Assembly (NCBI RefSeq): GCF_000963885.1
Contig: NZ_BALE01000010.1
Coordinates: 248,001-312,000, forward strand
Length of the DNA stretch: 64,000 bases
DNA from: Tanticharoenia sakaeratensis NBRC 103193
GTDB lineage: Bacteria; Pseudomonadota; Alphaproteobacteria; Acetobacterales; Acetobacteraceae
Direction of reading: 5' to 3'
Part shown: positions 14,643 to 20,362 of the stretch, one piece after another
Layout: every line of letters begins with the position of its first letter
Position numbering within the stretch: position 1 is the first letter of the stretch
Translations under genes and position numbers: made by a program
Notes under the pieces: model-generated
Told to the model about the DNA's origin: nothing
The model's database searches: none
What the model saw: the letters and a program-made list of their open reading frames with translations, nothing else

Positions 14643-16013
14643 GTGCCCGATATCGCGCTGATCGGCGGTGCCGTTGCGGTCTGCGCGAGCCTGCGCGGTC
14701 TTGCTGCGCTGCGTCTGGGTGCATGGCTCGCCGTCGCAGTCTGTGGCGTCGTCGGATTGTGTCTTGCCGGTCATCTCTCGACGGATCTGCCGGGCGAAGG
14801 CTGGTTGACGCTCTGGCCGGGCGCCTCGTTTGCCCTCGTCCTCGGCGGCCTCGTCGGGGCCCATTCCGCAATCCACATCGTGCCGGCGACGGAAGAGGGC
14901 ATCTCGGGCCCATCCGCCGATCTCGCGCTGGCGCTTTCCCTTCTGTCGGTCGCGACCGGTGGACTGATCGCCTGCGCCGGTCTGGTGCTGGGTGCAGTCC
15001 TCGTGGTGCAGGCGGAGGGGCGCCGATGGGCTGCCCTGATGCTGGCCGGGCTGATGCCATGTCTGGATGGCGCGCAGGGCGTGTGGATGGGAGCGGCCCT
15101 CCTGTCCGCGACGCTCGCCTTTCCGGGCACAAGCCCAGTTCACGGGGGACGAACCCGAGGCATGCTTGCCGTGGCAGCCTGTCTCGTGGCCTGGCATGTC
15201 GGGTCTCCGCCTGTCTGGGTCGGCGTCATCGGAGCGGCGCTTGCCGTCGGTGGCGTATCGCTTCTGTTCAGCGATGCCGTGCCCGGGTGGCACATGCCTG
15301 ACCGGTTGGCGATCGCCCATTCCCTCCTGTTGCTGGGGCTGGGTGCGGAAACCCGCGACACGATCGCGCCGTGGGTACTGTTCGTGCTCGGCTGGGGCGT
15401 ATGGCCTGCGGGGCGTCCCCTGTGGCGGCTCGTCTGTCCGCCGATGCTCGGTGGCTGGTCGCTCTGGCTCGCACTGCATGATGCGCATGGCGTGGGCGAT
15501 CCGATGGTCCGCGCGGGCCTGCTGGGTGCCTTGTTGGCGTGCGTCGCGCTCGAATGGATTGCATGCTGGCGTCTGATGGCCCGTCCTCAGGCTGCTGACC
15601 GGCCCTGGGACATCTTCGCAGGCTGTGTGTGCGCCGTGCCGGGCCTGGTTCTCGTGCTGGCGCGACCTCTGACCGGCGGCAGCAGACAGGATCCGTGGTC
15701 ATTGACGGCTGTCGACGGGGCGGTCGTTCATCCCTGGCTTTTCGTGATGGCGGCCGCCGCTATCGGGTTCGGGCTCTGGCGGACAGGACATCTGGGTCCC
15801 GTAATCGTCCCATCGGGCGAGGCGCGGATCGCGGGTCCGCTGCCGAACGACCTGTTGCGTCTTGCCGTCCGCGTCCGGCGCGGTTGGCAGGCGGTCCGCA
15901 AGACGGGGACGACATTGGCTGGCTGGCGCGCAGACCGGCGTCCCGAGCGGTCCGCACTGCTTCTCTGGCTTGCGATGCTGGCGGCAGGATTGCTGTGGGA
16001 GACCGGGCGATGA
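14643..16013 (+). CDS. HyfB-like (antiporter-like, NuoL/M family) membrane subunit, reduced
   Basis: First gene of a hydrogenase-4-like set. The protein has 456 aa and about 12-14 hydrophobic helices, well short of about 670 for HyfB. The assignment rests on gene order, a segment resembling HyfB (VGVIGAALAVGGVSLLF ... IAHSLLLLGLGAE, where relatives have the HDLKRLLAY-SxENIG helix), and a HyfB-like basic C-terminal region followed by a last helix (ALLLWLAMLAAGLLW). The usual channel helix with Lys, PLHxWLP and APxxVSA is absent; only SPVHGG stands there. Start: GTG 14643 has poor spacing, whereas GGGAGG at 14620-14625 is eight bases before a CTG at 14634 in the same frame. The stop overlaps the next ATG (ATGA). 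Confidence 0.6.
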   Translation: MPDIALIGGAVAVCASLRGLAALRLGAWLAVAVCGVVGLCLAGHLSTDLPGEGWLTLWPGASFALVLGGLVGAHSAIHIVPATEEGISGPSADLALALSLLSVATGGLIACAGLVLGAVLVVQAEGRRWAALMLAGLMPCLDGAQGVWMGAALLSATLAFPGTSPVHGGRTRGMLAVAACLVAWHVGSPPVWVGVIGAALAVGGVSLLFSDAVPGWHMPDRLAIAHSLLLLGLGAETRDTIAPWVLFVLGWGVWPAGRPLWRLVCPPMLGGWSLWLALHDAHGVGDPMVRAGLLGALLACVALEWIACWRLMARPQAADRPWDIFAGCVCAVPGLVLVLARPLTGGSRQDPWSLTAVDGAVVHPWLFVMAAAAIGFGLWRTGHLGPVIVPSGEARIAGPLPNDLLRLAVRVRRGWQAVRKTGTTLAGWRADRRPERSALLLWLAMLAAGLLWETGR

Positions 16014-16816
16014 CCGGAGCGGCATTCGCCCGCGAGGTGGCAACGCTTCTGTCTCTTCTGATCTGTCTGCTGCTGGCGCCGTGGTGCGCCGGGATTGCGG
16101 CCGCCATCCGCGCCGTGCTGTCAGGCCAGTCTCCGGCGCCCCTCAGCGCGCCGGCCCGGGGTCTCAGTCGTGCGTTGACGGAGCTTCGGCGCGGCCGTTC
16201 GACGCCGTCCGGTATGTCGCCCGGGCTGGCACTGGGCGCGACTGCAACGCTTGCCGCGCTGGCTGTCGACGTGATGCCCGGGATGTTCGATCCGCTTCTG
16301 GCCGCGTTCCTGCTGTCCGGCGCGCGCGTGATGATGTGGCTCGACGTGCGGGATGGCCCGGCCCTGTGGTTTGCCCGGGCCCGGGAGCAGCGAGGGGCTC
16401 TCGTGGTCCTCATGCTCGTGGGCATGATGGCCGGATTCTCGACTGAAGACGGTCGGGCCAGCGTCGGAGACGTGCTCCTGGCGGGTGGCGTTCTGATCGC
16501 GCTTTCCGATGGCGTGCTCGGAGCGCGTGATCCGGTGCGCGTTTCGTCCCAAGGACGCGCATGGGCGCGCGGCGTGGCCGATCTGCTCGTGCTGGGATGG
16601 ATATTGTGGCTGGCGCGGCTGGTCTGGCCGCATGTCACGGGCGGCCCATGGATGATGCCCGCATGGACGATCGCCCGCGCAGTCTGCATGGCCGTCGTTC
16701 TCGGGATTGCTCAGGGCATGTGGTTTCCGCGGGCGTCGGCGCGCCCGCTGGCGTCGGCCCTGTTGCTGGGAGGGCTGGCGCTCGTGCTGCTCGATCTCGG
16801 GGAAACCTCGGGATGA
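16010..16816 (+). CDS. HyfC-like (NuoH family) membrane subunit, reduced
   Basis: Corresponds to the subunit that joins the membrane arm to the iron-sulfur arm in complex I and group 4 hydrogenases. The protein has 268 aa, against about 310 in relatives. The recognisable parts are the first helix (LSLLICLLLAPWCAGIAAAI) and the loop PLSAPARGLSRALTELRRG leading to TPSGMSPGLALGATATLAALAVDVMP. This matches the HyfC pattern of 'P-L-x-x-P-Y-R-D-L-x-K-L-L-R-K-E ... P'. It continues with FLLSGARVMMWLDVRDGPALW and AREQRGALVVLMLVGMM. The first loop has lost most acidic and lysine residues typical of NuoH. ATG 16010 overlaps the previous stop; the stop overlaps the next start (ATGA). Confidence 0.68.
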   Translation: MTGAAFAREVATLLSLLICLLLAPWCAGIAAAIRAVLSGQSPAPLSAPARGLSRALTELRRGRSTPSGMSPGLALGATATLAALAVDVMPGMFDPLLAAFLLSGARVMMWLDVRDGPALWFARAREQRGALVVLMLVGMMAGFSTEDGRASVGDVLLAGGVLIALSDGVLGARDPVRVSSQGRAWARGVADLLVLGWILWLARLVWPHVTGGPWMMPAWTIARAVCMAVVLGIAQGMWFPRASARPLASALLLGGLALVLLDLGETSG

Positions 16817-17346
16817 ATGTGGGCATCGAGGGCATTCTCCTGCTCTGGAGTGTGGGTTCGCTCGGCCGCGACGGGCGCACGCTGCCCGTCCATGCGGTCC
16901 TGTGTGCCCTGTGCATGGCGCGGACGGGCCCGATCGGGGCTCTGGCGGGTGCCGTTCTGGTCGGTGCCGGACTGCTGGCCTGGGGCGCTTTGCGTCAACT
17001 CGCGCCGCAGGACACGGGAGTGACACATGCGCGCTGGTGGCCGGTCGTCTGCGCCGTGGTGCTGTCGGCGGCCGTGGTGAGGGGCGGTGTGGGCCTGCCA
17101 CAGCAAGGCGCGCTCGTTGTCGCATCTGTCCTCGCGGGCCTCGTCGGTGTCGCGACCGCCTCGGAAGCTCTGGCAGGATGTGCCGCGATGCTGCGGACGC
17201 TGAATGCCTGCGTGGTGCTGGCCTGTCTGGGGGGGCATGTGCCGACCCTTCTGGTGGCCGGTGGCTTGTGGGTCTCGGTCGCGGCCGTGGCTCTGCTCGT
17301 GATGCCACGCCTGTCCTGGCTGCGGAGTAATGACCCGCATGAATGA
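16813..17346 (+). CDS. HyfE-like (NuoK-like) membrane subunit, reduced
   Basis: Short membrane protein (177 aa; HyfE has about 216) with five or six helices, in the place where HyfE is expected between HyfC- and HyfF-like genes. Visible segments are PVHAVLCALCMAR, GALAGAVLVGAGLLAWGALR, WWPVVCAVVLSAAVVRGGVG, LVVASVLAGLVGVATASEAL and LLVAGGLWVSVAAVALLVMP. Sequence alone would not identify it, so the assignment depends on synteny. The acidic residues that matter in NuoK are not obvious. ATG 16813 overlaps the previous stop as ATGA; the end overlaps the next gene by 17 bases (or 8 if that gene starts at 17339). Confidence 0.5.
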   Translation: MNVGIEGILLLWSVGSLGRDGRTLPVHAVLCALCMARTGPIGALAGAVLVGAGLLAWGALRQLAPQDTGVTHARWWPVVCAVVLSAAVVRGGVGLPQQGALVVASVLAGLVGVATASEALAGCAAMLRTLNACVVLACLGGHVPTLLVAGGLWVSVAAVALLVMPRLSWLRSNDPHE

Positions 17347-18385
17347 GGCGCCTCTCTGGACCCTTCTGGCGGGCTGGCCGCTGCTGGCTGCCTGCGTGCT
17401 CGCACTGGTGCCGACCGCGCACCGCCGCGCGAGTGCCGCGACGCTTGCGACTACGGGTCTCGCGGCGACACTCGTCCTGGTGTGGCGCATGCCGGCTGAT
17501 GCCGTGGCCAAGGCGGCGTGCGTCGGTCTAGGTGCGGCACTTGCGCTGCACTGGACGCTTGGACACGGTGCCTCCGCGCGGGCACGCGTCCTGCCGGTCT
17601 TCGCATCGGCCGGCATTCTGGGCCTGCTGGCCTGCGGGGCAGACCTGGCGATCTCGGCAGGTTTGCTGGGCGCTCAGGCCGTCTGCGTCGCAGCCGTCGG
17701 CTTGTCTGCCCGCAGGCGGGCCCGGCCCGGCTGGGAGGCGCTCCTGTCCGACCTCTCCGGCGCGGTCCTGCTGCTTGTCTCGTCAGGCGCGCCCGCCGCA
17801 TCGTTCGCACCGGTCTGCGCATCCCTCGGCTTCGGCATGCTCGGCGGTCTCGGACCGCGCCCGCGCGGGGAAGAGCGCGACGACGAGAGCGAGGCGAGTC
17901 TCGCCCGCGCATTGCTGGGCGTGGGCGCCGTGATCGCCCTCGGGCGCAGCACGATGTTGATCTCCACCGACATCGTGCTCGGCCTGGGTGTCCTGACCGT
18001 CTGGCTGGCGGCCGTCTCGCCTGTGCCGCGTGGCGTGCGGATCCAGATCGCGCTTGCCGCGATGGCCGCTGTCCTCCCGCACGGTGCATGGGCGGCAGGC
18101 GTGTCATGCCTTCTGGCTCTGGGCCTCGGTGCGGCCAACTGGATGCCGAACAGGCTGGCAAGCGCCAACATGGTGCCGTGGCCGGGCTTCGTCGCGGCGC
18201 TATGGGTCATCGATGCGTGCTGGCGGCAGCCTGGCCCCGGCACCCTGATCGCGGCGCTCCTGCTCGCCGGGCTTGTTCTCGCGGCGCTGCGTCGAGGCGT
18301 CGCGCCGGTGCGTGCCGATGCCATGACGATCGGGCTCATGATGGCGTCCCTCGGGGCCGCTGTCGTGCTGGAGCAGGCGGGATGA
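17330..18385 (+). CDS. HyfF-like (NuoN/L family) membrane subunit, strongly reduced
   Basis: The protein has 351 aa and about ten helices; HyfF and NuoN are near 480-520. Position and hydrophobic pattern fit HyfF: WTLLAGWPLLAACVLALVP at the N-terminus, then repeated Ala/Leu/Val helices and an acidic loop (GEERDDESEASLARALLGVG). The conserved TM5 Glu, the TM7 Lys and the PLHxWLPxAHxxAP signature are not found. The sequence is rich in Ala and Gly, as in its neighbours. Two in-frame starts exist (17330, 17339). The stop overlaps the large-subunit ATG (ATGA). It could equally be called a membrane protein of unknown function in a Hyf-like operon. Confidence 0.5.
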   Translation: MTRMNEAPLWTLLAGWPLLAACVLALVPTAHRRASAATLATTGLAATLVLVWRMPADAVAKAACVGLGAALALHWTLGHGASARARVLPVFASAGILGLLACGADLAISAGLLGAQAVCVAAVGLSARRRARPGWEALLSDLSGAVLLLVSSGAPAASFAPVCASLGFGMLGGLGPRPRGEERDDESEASLARALLGVGAVIALGRSTMLISTDIVLGLGVLTVWLAAVSPVPRGVRIQIALAAMAAVLPHGAWAAGVSCLLALGLGAANWMPNRLASANMVPWPGFVAALWVIDACWRQPGPGTLIAALLLAGLVLAALRRGVAPVRADAMTIGLMMASLGAAVVLEQAG

Positions 18386-19842
18386 GGCACGAGATCAGCC
18401 TCATCCGCAGTGGCGAGCGCGTGGCCGCCCGCCATTTCCGGCTGGACGAGGAGACATGGCGCACGCTGTGCGAAACGGCCCCCGGCCTGCCGCTCCTGGG
18501 TCTGTGGTGCGACGACGACGCGGTCTTCGCCCTGTTTCTCGAGGCCGATCGTCCGTTGCTGGCCAGCACGGCGCTGATCGGGGGACGGTATCACGCGCTC
18601 TCCGCCGTGATCGCCCCGGCTGCCCTGCACGAGCGGATCGCGCAGGATCTGTGGGGCGCGGAACCCATGAACGCGCGGGATGTCTCCTCGCTGTTCGATA
18701 TCGGCACATGGCGGGCGACATGGCCTGCGAGCGCGCGGTCCGTCCCCGCACAGGCCGGGGCCCCCGCTGCTCCGCCTGATGCATCGCGGCCCATCGCGTT
18801 TCCGCCTGACGGGGCAATCGGTGCGCCATTGATGGCGCTGCAGGCGCGGCCGTGGTCCACCGGCCTTGCCGGTATGGCGATCGGTAGCGGTTACGCCCAT
18901 CGAGGCATCGGTTCCCTGCTGCGCGGGCGCGCACCGGACGAGGCCATGCGTCTGATCGGCCGCGTGTCGGGTGCGGCCTATGTCGCGCATCCGCTCGCCT
19001 TCAGCCGCGCCGTGGAGCGCGCGCGCGGGCAGGCGGTCTCACCCGCGTTGCAGCGGGCGCGCGCCATCCTGGGGGAAATCGAGCGTATTTCCGCCCATCT
19101 CTATGATCTGGGCCGCACGGCCCGGGCGGCGAACGCCCCGCTGTTTGCGGCCCACACGGAGCAGGCACGCGAAACTCTGGCCGGGATCTGCACGGCCCAT
19201 GACCTGCCGCGTCGTCTCACCGATCTCGTGGCGCCCTACAGCGTCCGTCATGCGGATCGGTTGGTCGGACTGGCTCGGTCTGTTGCCGACTGGGCGCCGG
19301 GGATGCTCGCGACGCTGGAGGGGCTGCTGCCGACGATGAAAGCCCGTCTCGTGGGGGTAGGACGGCTTGCCAGCGAACGTGCATATGCGTTCGGGATCGG
19401 CGGGCTCGTTGGGCGGGCATCGGGACGCGGGTTTGACCTGCGACGATTCGAGACGGGGTTCGACCCGCGCGTGCTCTCACCCGGCGGCCTCACGGGTGGC
19501 GATGCCTGGGCGCGCACCGCGCTGCGCCTGCGCGAAATCGATGGTGCGCGGCAGAGCCTGGGCGGCATGGCGGAAGGCTTCGATACCGGCGGCCCGCCGG
19601 AGAGTCGGGACGACGCCGCGGCGAGCGAATTCCGTGAAGGGATCGGCTTTGCGGAGGGCGCGCGCGGCGATATCTGGTACTGGGTGCGTCTGCGCGAGGG
19701 GAAGGTGGACGCCGCCTGGGTGCGTGATCCGGCGCTGCCCCTGTTGCCGCTGCTGCCGGAACTGCTGCGCGGTGGTGACCCGGAGACGATCGCGATCGTG
19801 CTTGCCTCGCTTGGCTGGTCGATGTCGGGAGCGGAACTATGA
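18382..19842 (+). CDS. HyfG-like large subunit (NuoC-NuoD fusion) lacking [NiFe] ligands
   Basis: The protein has 486 aa. Residues 1-120 form a NuoC-like domain (GRYHALSAVIAPAALHERI, QDLWGAEP). Residues about 140-486 form a NuoD / hydrogenase large-subunit domain (GYAHRGIGSLLRGRAPDEA, RVSGAAYVAHPLAFSRAVE, ILGEIERISAHLYDLG, YAFGIGGLVGRASGRGFD). Group 4 [NiFe] hydrogenases have RVCGxC at the place of R194-V-S196-G-A-A199, so both first-motif cysteines are replaced. The C-terminus ends SMSGAEL with no CxxC, and the N-terminal GPxHP quinone-site motif of NuoD is also lacking. It therefore resembles energy-converting hydrogenase-related (Ehr) subunits and should not bind Ni-Fe. ATG 18382 overlaps the previous stop. 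Confidence 0.82.
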   Translation: MRHEISLIRSGERVAARHFRLDEETWRTLCETAPGLPLLGLWCDDDAVFALFLEADRPLLASTALIGGRYHALSAVIAPAALHERIAQDLWGAEPMNARDVSSLFDIGTWRATWPASARSVPAQAGAPAAPPDASRPIAFPPDGAIGAPLMALQARPWSTGLAGMAIGSGYAHRGIGSLLRGRAPDEAMRLIGRVSGAAYVAHPLAFSRAVERARGQAVSPALQRARAILGEIERISAHLYDLGRTARAANAPLFAAHTEQARETLAGICTAHDLPRRLTDLVAPYSVRHADRLVGLARSVADWAPGMLATLEGLLPTMKARLVGVGRLASERAYAFGIGGLVGRASGRGFDLRRFETGFDPRVLSPGGLTGGDAWARTALRLREIDGARQSLGGMAEGFDTGGPPESRDDAAASEFREGIGFAEGARGDIWYWVRLREGKVDAAWVRDPALPLLPLLPELLRGGDPETIAIVLASLGWSMSGAEL

Positions 19843-19897
19843 TCGGCGGCATGAGCCTGTCGACAACATGGCATTTCGCCTTTCGAGAGTGGCTGCC

Positions 19898-20362
19898 GTG
19901 CTGATCCGTGCCTTGATCGAGGCGGCGCAGGGACATGCACGCGTGCCGCGCGGACGTCAGCCCTTGCGTCTGTTTCACATCGAGACGGCCGGATGCGAAG
20001 GATGCGGCATGGAAGTCGCAGCCCTGCGCGGTGCGGCCTATGGGCTTGCCCGGGCAGACATCGCCTTCGTCGATCGGCCCGAGGCGGCCGATTTCCTGCT
20101 CGTCACCGGCGCACTCAGCCGCGCCATGGCGCCGGAACTGGATCGCGCGTGGCAGGCGATGCCAGCGCGACGAGGCCTGATCGCGATTGGCGCCTGCGCG
20201 ATCGATGGCGGTCCATTCGGGGAGACATACGCACTGCTCGGTGGCCTGTCGCGGCTGGCGCGGACGACGATCGACGTACCCGGCTGCCCAGCCGAACCCG
20301 CAGCCATCCTGGATGGCCTGCTGACGCTGGCAGTCCGGCGTGAGGACGAGGCCGCGGGCTAG
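19898..20362 (+). CDS. HyfI-like (NuoB family) small subunit with intact [4Fe-4S] site
   Basis: NuoB/HyfI-type electron-transfer subunit that carries the cluster nearest the large-subunit active site. From GTG 19898 it has 154 aa: VLIRALIEAAQGHARVP, then RLFHIETAGCEGCGMEV with Cys33 and Cys36, IAIGACAIDGGPFG with Cys100 and DVPGCPAEP with Cys130, i.e. all four ligands expected for one [4Fe-4S] cluster. GTG 19898 is chosen because GAGAG sits eight bases upstream and the protein then begins like relatives; ATG 19868 in the same frame lacks a ribosome-binding site. A 21-codon frame from ATG 19839 overlaps the large-subunit stop and runs across this start, perhaps for coupling. The gene ends 10 bases before the convergent alcohol dehydrogenase. 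Confidence 0.82.
   Translation: MLIRALIEAAQGHARVPRGRQPLRLFHIETAGCEGCGMEVAALRGAAYGLARADIAFVDRPEAADFLLVTGALSRAMAPELDRAWQAMPARRGLIAIGACAIDGGPFGETYALLGGLSRLARTTIDVPGCPAEPAAILDGLLTLAVRREDEAAG

Follow-up and report, generated by a model that had tools for sequence, protein, structure and literature searches.

A six-gene operon of Tanticharoenia sakaeratensis NBRC 103193 appears, from its sequence, to encode a reduced and new variant of the energy-converting hydrogenase-related (Ehr) complexes, in which the pumping apparatus of the membrane arm has been lost and the peripheral HyfG-HyfI pair retained. It lies at positions 14643 to 20362 of the 64,000-nucleotide stretch analyzed here (the window; contig NZ_BALE01000010.1, positions 248,001 to 312,000). 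An earlier reading of the window (the original prediction) had drawn attention to the missing Ni-Fe ligands, the missing HyfH and the apparently pump-less design. Comparison across the Acetobacteraceae puts the emphasis elsewhere: what is derived is the dismantling of the membrane arm, not the absence of Ni ligands or of HyfH, and judging from substitution patterns the reduced complex is not decaying. The features of the locus are as follows.

14643-16013, + strand: HyfB-like protein (NuoL/M/N antiporter family), 456 aa; GTG start uncertain; no Pfam match
16010-16816, + strand: HyfC-like protein (NuoH family), 268 aa
16813-17346, + strand: HyfE-like protein (NuoK family), 177 aa
17330-18385, + strand: HyfF-like protein (antiporter family), 351 aa
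18382-19842, + strand: HyfG-like protein (NuoCD / hydrogenase large subunit), 486 aa; devoid of Ni ligands
18898-18900, + strand: codon for HyfG His173 in the HRG motif; in the alignment it falls on the His of VHRGMEK in E. coli HyfG
19868-20362, + strand: HyfI-like protein (NuoB), 164 aa; carries the four Cys of a [4Fe-4S] site; may instead start at GTG 19898
19994-20287, + strand: HyfI Cys codons, C43 (19994), C46 (20003), C110 (20195) and C140 (20285), from sequence and alignment

The genes follow the order HyfB-C-E-F-G-I in six intact open frames, as had been predicted. The coupling described at the same time also holds, with 4-base overlaps between B and C, C and E, and F and G, and a 17-base overlap between E and F. 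HyfI does not overlap its neighbour and starts 25 bases past the end of HyfG; a start at 19839 that would overlap HyfG was ruled out because it is in the wrong frame. Neither HyfA, HyfD, HyfH nor HyfJ was found at the locus, and no NADH module of the kind that marks complex I adjoins it. The gene set is not a chance assembly, since it recurs across the Acetobacteraceae and, wherever closely related species allow a comparison, shows purifying selection.

HyfG is recognized by Pfam (PF00346, 8.6e-9; PF00374, 7.5e-7) and is a homologue of the group 4 NiFe hydrogenase large subunit, as expected of Ehr. Its closest solved relatives are subunit 5 of formate hydrogenlyase (FHL; 1.2e-15) and MBH alpha (4.3e-12), with complex I subunits next. 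At the columns of the E. coli HyfG Ni ligands the window reads S, A, S and G, with no Cys, so the Ehr-like, Ni-less character first proposed for this operon is borne out, and the RxCGxC and DPCxxC ligands that define hydrogenase 4 and FHL are absent. That loss is not distinctive, however. Full-length relatives in the Acetobacteraceae also lack the ligands (Ser/Ser/Ser/Gly or similar), and no family row has more than one Cys at the four columns (L051, second column). A motif search of a true hydrogenase from a family genome, the positive control, recovered RVCGIC and DPCYSC; this genuine group 4-type set (L102:6251-10531) belongs to genome G029, of 1.9 Mb. The absence of HyfH likewise proved normal for the six-gene type: HyfI stops 503-865 bases after HyfG does in every one of 13 full-length loci, leaving no room for HyfH between them (it was not sought elsewhere).

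It is in the membrane arm that the window departs from these relatives. Its membrane subunits are 17-31% shorter, in line with the original prediction, HyfB having 456 aa against a median of 661 and HyfF 351 against 485 in 12 full-length relatives (one of these rows has a broken HyfB). Median lengths in 17 acetous rows versus the 12 full-length rows are 475/661 for B, 298/321 for C, 182/217 for E and 381/485 for F. The predicted loss of channel signatures was examined at 15 columns defined on the E. coli proteins, five each in HyfB, HyfF and HyfC. Most full-length rows read EKKHK (B), EKHDK (F) and EREDE (C), and the window reads AGV-- (B), GL-RG (F) and -RV-- (C), so that one column of the 15, an Arg of HyfC, is kept and the residues suited to ion translocation that are expected of Ehr are gone. 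Window HyfC also lacks the E-channel/ND1-loop segment (IPVDNPATHLELTMVHEAM) present in full-length relatives. The Ni site was therefore gone before the pump, since the full-length relatives are without Ni ligands yet have their channel residues intact. Partially reduced forms also occur (L054, L059, L069 and L073), and what had looked like an oddity of one genome is common to a whole branch of the Acetobacteraceae, with graded intermediates.

Near-invariant ionisable residues number 3 in the acetous rows versus 27 in the full-length rows for B, 2 versus 29 for C, 2 versus 15 for E and 2 versus 23 for F, and no Lys or Glu is near-invariant in any of the four subunits across the 17 acetous rows. 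Some features do persist or appear. The PPxxGFxxxW motif of HyfB is retained, and HyfE has Gly18 in 17/17 and Asp20 in 16/17 acetous rows, in a GRDxR-type motif not seen in full-length rows.

The membrane arm has diverged so far that, HyfC apart, its ancestry is visible only in steps. For the window, B, C, E and F gave nothing above cut-off in Pfam or NCBIfam, and the same was true in Pfam of the reduced members L003 (B, C, E, F), L046 (B, C, F), L048 (B, C, F) and L043 (C); reduced L050 keeps a residual HyfB match (3.7e-7). Full-length L062, by comparison, matches PF00361 with B and F (1.8e-48 and 1.7e-47) and PF00146 with C (1.9e-35). In direct comparisons of acetous and full-length profiles only HyfC was significant (E = 9.6e-11); B (E 0.0025, probability 12%), E (0.017) and F (0.15) were not, the best match of F being B at 0.13. 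When intermediate genera were used as a bridge, hhalign joined all four subunits, at 96-99% probability from acetous to intermediate and 96-99.9% from intermediate to full-length (for HyfB, 96% and then 99.9% from intermediate to deep rows). Cross-subunit controls stayed below 1%, except for B against F (90.6%), which are paralogous families. The profile searches suggested with the original prediction thus succeed directly for HyfG and HyfI (PF01058, 1.2e-21, for the latter), and only through intermediate profiles for B, E and F, HyfC being significant in the direct profile comparison as well, so that the antiporter-like (Mrp-type) subunits expected of an Ehr membrane arm can be assigned in the window through those intermediates.

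The breadth of the family was surveyed with a HyfG protein search of 249 Acetobacteraceae genomes (E <= 1e-5), which gave matches in 239, including genomes whose only match is probably NuoD of complex I. Forty operon stretches were taken and later 20 more (one of the latter arbitrary and unused), and iterated profiles, mixed at first recruitment, extracted subunits from 47 loci: B from 45, C from 43, E from 39, F from 45, G from 47 and I from 40. Some misses reflect contig ends (L059, L073) or a split locus (L063). Of the seven loci without HyfI, L073 is at a contig end, and in the other six genomes the gene lies elsewhere or about 4 kb away. L063 (genome G011) has HyfG and HyfI without B, C, E or F alongside; its B and C, of full length, are on a different contig, so that the genes of the peripheral arm and those of the membrane arm are naturally separated in this genome. 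In L064 a full-length HyfB is read in two frames, either a frameshift or a sequencing error.

Searches with full-length HyfG were extended to 289 genomes of the class and 200 of the phylum, samples that both include a few family members. No reduced form was seen outside the family, where one near-full-length intermediate match was inspected and other weak matches were not; the inspected one (G269/G400) proved to be a DPCxxC hydrogenase. Two genomes of the same class, of 1.2-1.4 Mb, carry a compact hydrogenase-like set with DPCISC (L104, L105), and a genome of about 0.9 Mb from another family (L107) retains Ehr-type G, I and F genes; its HyfC, cut by the fetched stretch, has the IPVDNPTTHLELTMIHE loop intact.

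A HyfG tree of 44 rows places 26 reduced rows on one side of a single branch (support 97/86), with the partial rows adjacent. Its root was not inferred and the E. coli row is a very long branch; L063 carried the label full at a stage when its B and C had yet to be found, and close species (L004, L005) and duplicates (L039, L044) were left out of both the tree and the column alignment. Most reduced operons are flanked by homologues of pepA-holC(-AKR, aldo/keto reductase) and pssA-psd, a shared setting that suggests vertical descent, although reduced L055 and L067 do not have these neighbours; full and partial loci showed none of them, except for an AKR match in L063. Two genomes, G150 and G082, each hold a full and a partial copy, so duplication contributed. 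The reduced complex has apparently been inherited vertically within one branch of the Acetobacteraceae.

In the window itself the genes upstream are presumably leucyl-aminopeptidase-like and holC-like, and those downstream we take to be alcohol dehydrogenase-like, pssA-like and psd-like. An AKR gene, identified by Pfam, also lies upstream of the operon; in a Gluconobacter locus (L003:4312-5168) such a gene ends about 10 bases before HyfB, whose start is uncertain. AKR was rejected as an obligate partner, because the search of Saccharibacter-type loci did not reveal it.

Selection on the reduced operon was estimated as omega from pairwise NG86 comparisons, in which dS may be underestimated for genes of high GC content. 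Among three Gluconobacter species omega is 0.084-0.101 for B, 0.079-0.107 for C, 0.007-0.017 for E, 0.054-0.086 for F, 0.059-0.068 for G and 0.075-0.089 for I. HyfE is thus the most constrained of the six, and its product is 99% identical between species (L003-L005) despite a dS of 0.19-0.36. Values are 0.083-0.174 in group g33 and 0.085-0.262 in g85 (five genes each). Constraint is weaker than in Gluconobacter in g43, a group of four for which three of six pairs were used (0.136-0.623), and in one genus that has lost most of its cluster ligands (C, F, G and I, 0.096-0.390, with HyfG at 0.10-0.14). No internal stop in HyfG occurs among the matches listed. Conservation is concentrated in the peripheral arm. 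Near-invariant columns, counted in 17 acetous rows (10 for I) versus 12 full-length rows, amount to 16.5/26.3% for G and 16.7/34.2% for I, against 2.7/9.7% for B, 6.2/27.5% for C, 9.4/19.8% for E and 5.6/20.6% for F. Selection therefore still protects the complex, which probably has a job.

Within HyfG, 76 positions are near-invariant across the 17 acetous rows. Among them, His173, Glu232, Glu234, Arg235, His239, Arg345, Arg349, Asp352, Arg448 and Asp449 are present in 17/17, and His173, of the HRG motif, is kept in full and reduced rows alike. HyfI in the window keeps all four [4Fe-4S] cysteines, as does HyfI in 52 of 56 loci, or 48 of 52 once the true hydrogenase L102 and three duplicates (L044, L093, L094) are set aside. 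HyfI was found in 37/37 genomes chosen for having HyfG. By coordinates, nine of them (G022, G227, G148, G008, G191, G084, G037, G046 and G001) have it at a long distance from the operon, and the five g33 genomes have it about 4 kb away. An apparent TGA inside HyfI of G217 and G100 was dismissed, because the frames of the same records are open from their own starts (L003, L008). In the subclade with relocated HyfI, a NUDIX-domain gene adjoins it in L079, L080 and L041; in L084 the neighbours are an NrtR-type regulator and, after it, nadA and a nadB-like gene, and nadA-like frames also lie nearby in L079 and L080.

The complex is also kept where complex I cannot be detected. In 14 of the 37 genomes HyfI was the only match, with no NuoB-type match, and the same 14, of 1.9-2.6 Mb, have a single HyfG/NuoD-type match among the matches listed. 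On these grounds complex I appears absent from them, other nuo genes not having been sought. Gluconobacter and small-genome relatives such as Saccharibacter carry the reduced complex, the latter without detectable NuoB. Among 23 genomes chosen for a weak or absent HyfG match, HyfI of G009 stands on a cut contig, and G029 carries the true hydrogenase; the rest gave complex I-like scores or, in two cases, no match. In the window's own genome, NuoB- and NuoD-type genes lie away from the operon, and PF00361 is found in five places, none of them in it: two on contig C36 (G000:C36:37346-40044) and three on C85 near the NuoD- and NuoB-type genes.

What the complex does is best approached through the systems it resembles. 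Ehr complexes, in the portion of the account available, are a described class suspected, though not proven, to couple redox chemistry to ion transport, on account of their antiporter-like subunits (PMC6349859). Like them, the window encodes a group 4 hydrogenase relative without Ni-Fe ligands together with antiporter-like homologues; unlike them, its antiporter-like and HyfC subunits are shortened and devoid of channel residues. Because translocation in Ehr is itself a suspicion, the window complex is filed as a reduced variant of that class despite the channel loss. With E. coli FHL and hydrogenase 4 it shares HyfG and HyfI sequence, the [4Fe-4S] cysteines, the HRG His and the hyf B-C-E-F-G-I order (compare PMC9474812, available in part), but it differs in having neither Ni ligands, HyfA/D/H/J at the locus, HyfC loop glutamates nor antiporter channel residues. 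According to the same source, mutation of HycD E138 in FHL cut H2 production by 98%, and of E199/E201/E203 by 99%; by our own alignment, the loop corresponding to the latter three is gone in window HyfC. Respiratory complex I has homologous modules of the NuoB, NuoCD, NuoH, NuoK and NuoL/M/N types, but the window locus has neither its NADH module nor its antiporter channel residues. Finally, the Acetobacteraceae retain a deranged bc1 complex and a COX1-like protein, and the bc1 complex has been proposed to stabilize complex I (PMC10715153, as far as available). That case is similar in that respiratory genes were kept after loss of cofactor ligands. It concerns a different complex, and the main text of the paper contains neither 'ehr' nor 'hyf'. 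No account of a reduced Ehr in acetic acid bacteria was found in the open-access literature, subscription journals lying mostly outside the search.

We favour, at somewhat less than even confidence, a non-pumping, membrane-anchored HyfG-HyfI module that relays electrons through one cluster. Its full-length relatives are six-subunit group 4 hydrogenase relatives already without Ni ligands, with channel residues intact in the membrane arm. In the acetous branch the pump (the antiporter Lys/Glu sites and the HyfC E-channel loop) was dismantled, and the peripheral pair, with its one [4Fe-4S] site, was kept under selection on a shortened membrane anchor. HyfI would then take electrons from a partner or give them to it, and HyfG would supply a pocket and docking surface, with no charge translocation. 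We infer that a cluster is assembled, that electrons flow through it and that the remaining helices act as an anchor only.

Several observations weigh against this proposal. A search of the locus found no gene for an electron donor. Both the DPCxxC Asp and the HyfC loop near the active site are gone, which argues against ordinary quinone reduction. Structure predictions for F and C (seven rows each) had pLDDT values of 47 and 52, and the models were not used, which leaves the anchor role without structural support. In three loci of one genus (L067, L088, L097) the four Cys columns read GCGS, with the genes retained, and in L085 they read SCCC, so the complex can outlive its cluster. The iron-sulfur subunit singled out in the original prediction is thus present, with all its cysteines, in the window, and its cluster is dispensable in the three genomes that have lost three ligands. 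Taken together, the observation behind that prediction is confirmed and its interpretation partly supported.

In a broader formulation, which we hold only tentatively, the operon represents a member of the complex I/hydrogenase superfamily rebuilt as a non-pumping, possibly non-redox scaffold or regulator that is under selection and does not need complex I. A slightly more doubtful specific rival to the electron relay is a non-redox scaffold or assembly factor, in which a different membrane protein would be held in place or regulated by the surface of HyfG together with the membrane anchor, any cluster present having a structural role. Retention of the genes in the genus that lost three of four ligands, with HyfG still constrained there, makes it a close rival, and the single ligand lost in L085 and the structural role proposed for the deranged bc1 complex (PMC10715153, in the part available) point the same way. 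A pure scaffold, however, needs none of the four cysteines kept in nearly all distinct HyfI loci, and steadying complex I in the bc1 manner is impossible in the 14 genomes without a NuoB match.

The remaining alternatives fare worse. A pump with a rewired proton path, in which new residues replace the classic Lys/Glu channel, could draw on the intermediates that still connect the subunits with the antiporter and NuoH families and on the persistent HyfB motif; it is improbable, given at most three near-invariant ionisable positions per subunit and no Lys or Glu among them. Still less probable is a relic under decay. The graded erosion across the family and the weaker constraint in g43 and the cluster-less genus would fit it, but the Gluconobacter values (0.007-0.107) are strongly contrary, being far from the dN/dS near 1, or the frequent frameshifts, that had been named in advance as signs of a decaying locus, and intact HyfG frames and retention in the 14 small genomes without NuoB also count against it. 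A working hydrogenase or formate hydrogenlyase, suggested by gene order and similarity to FHL subunits, is refuted by the missing Cys at all four Ni-ligand columns, in a search that detected the motifs in its control.

Within the single family Acetobacteraceae, nature provides full, partial and pump-less complexes as a graded series. With it one can examine which components a complex I relative still requires when it has lost both Ni site and pump, and Gluconobacter, which carries the complex, is a workable laboratory genus.

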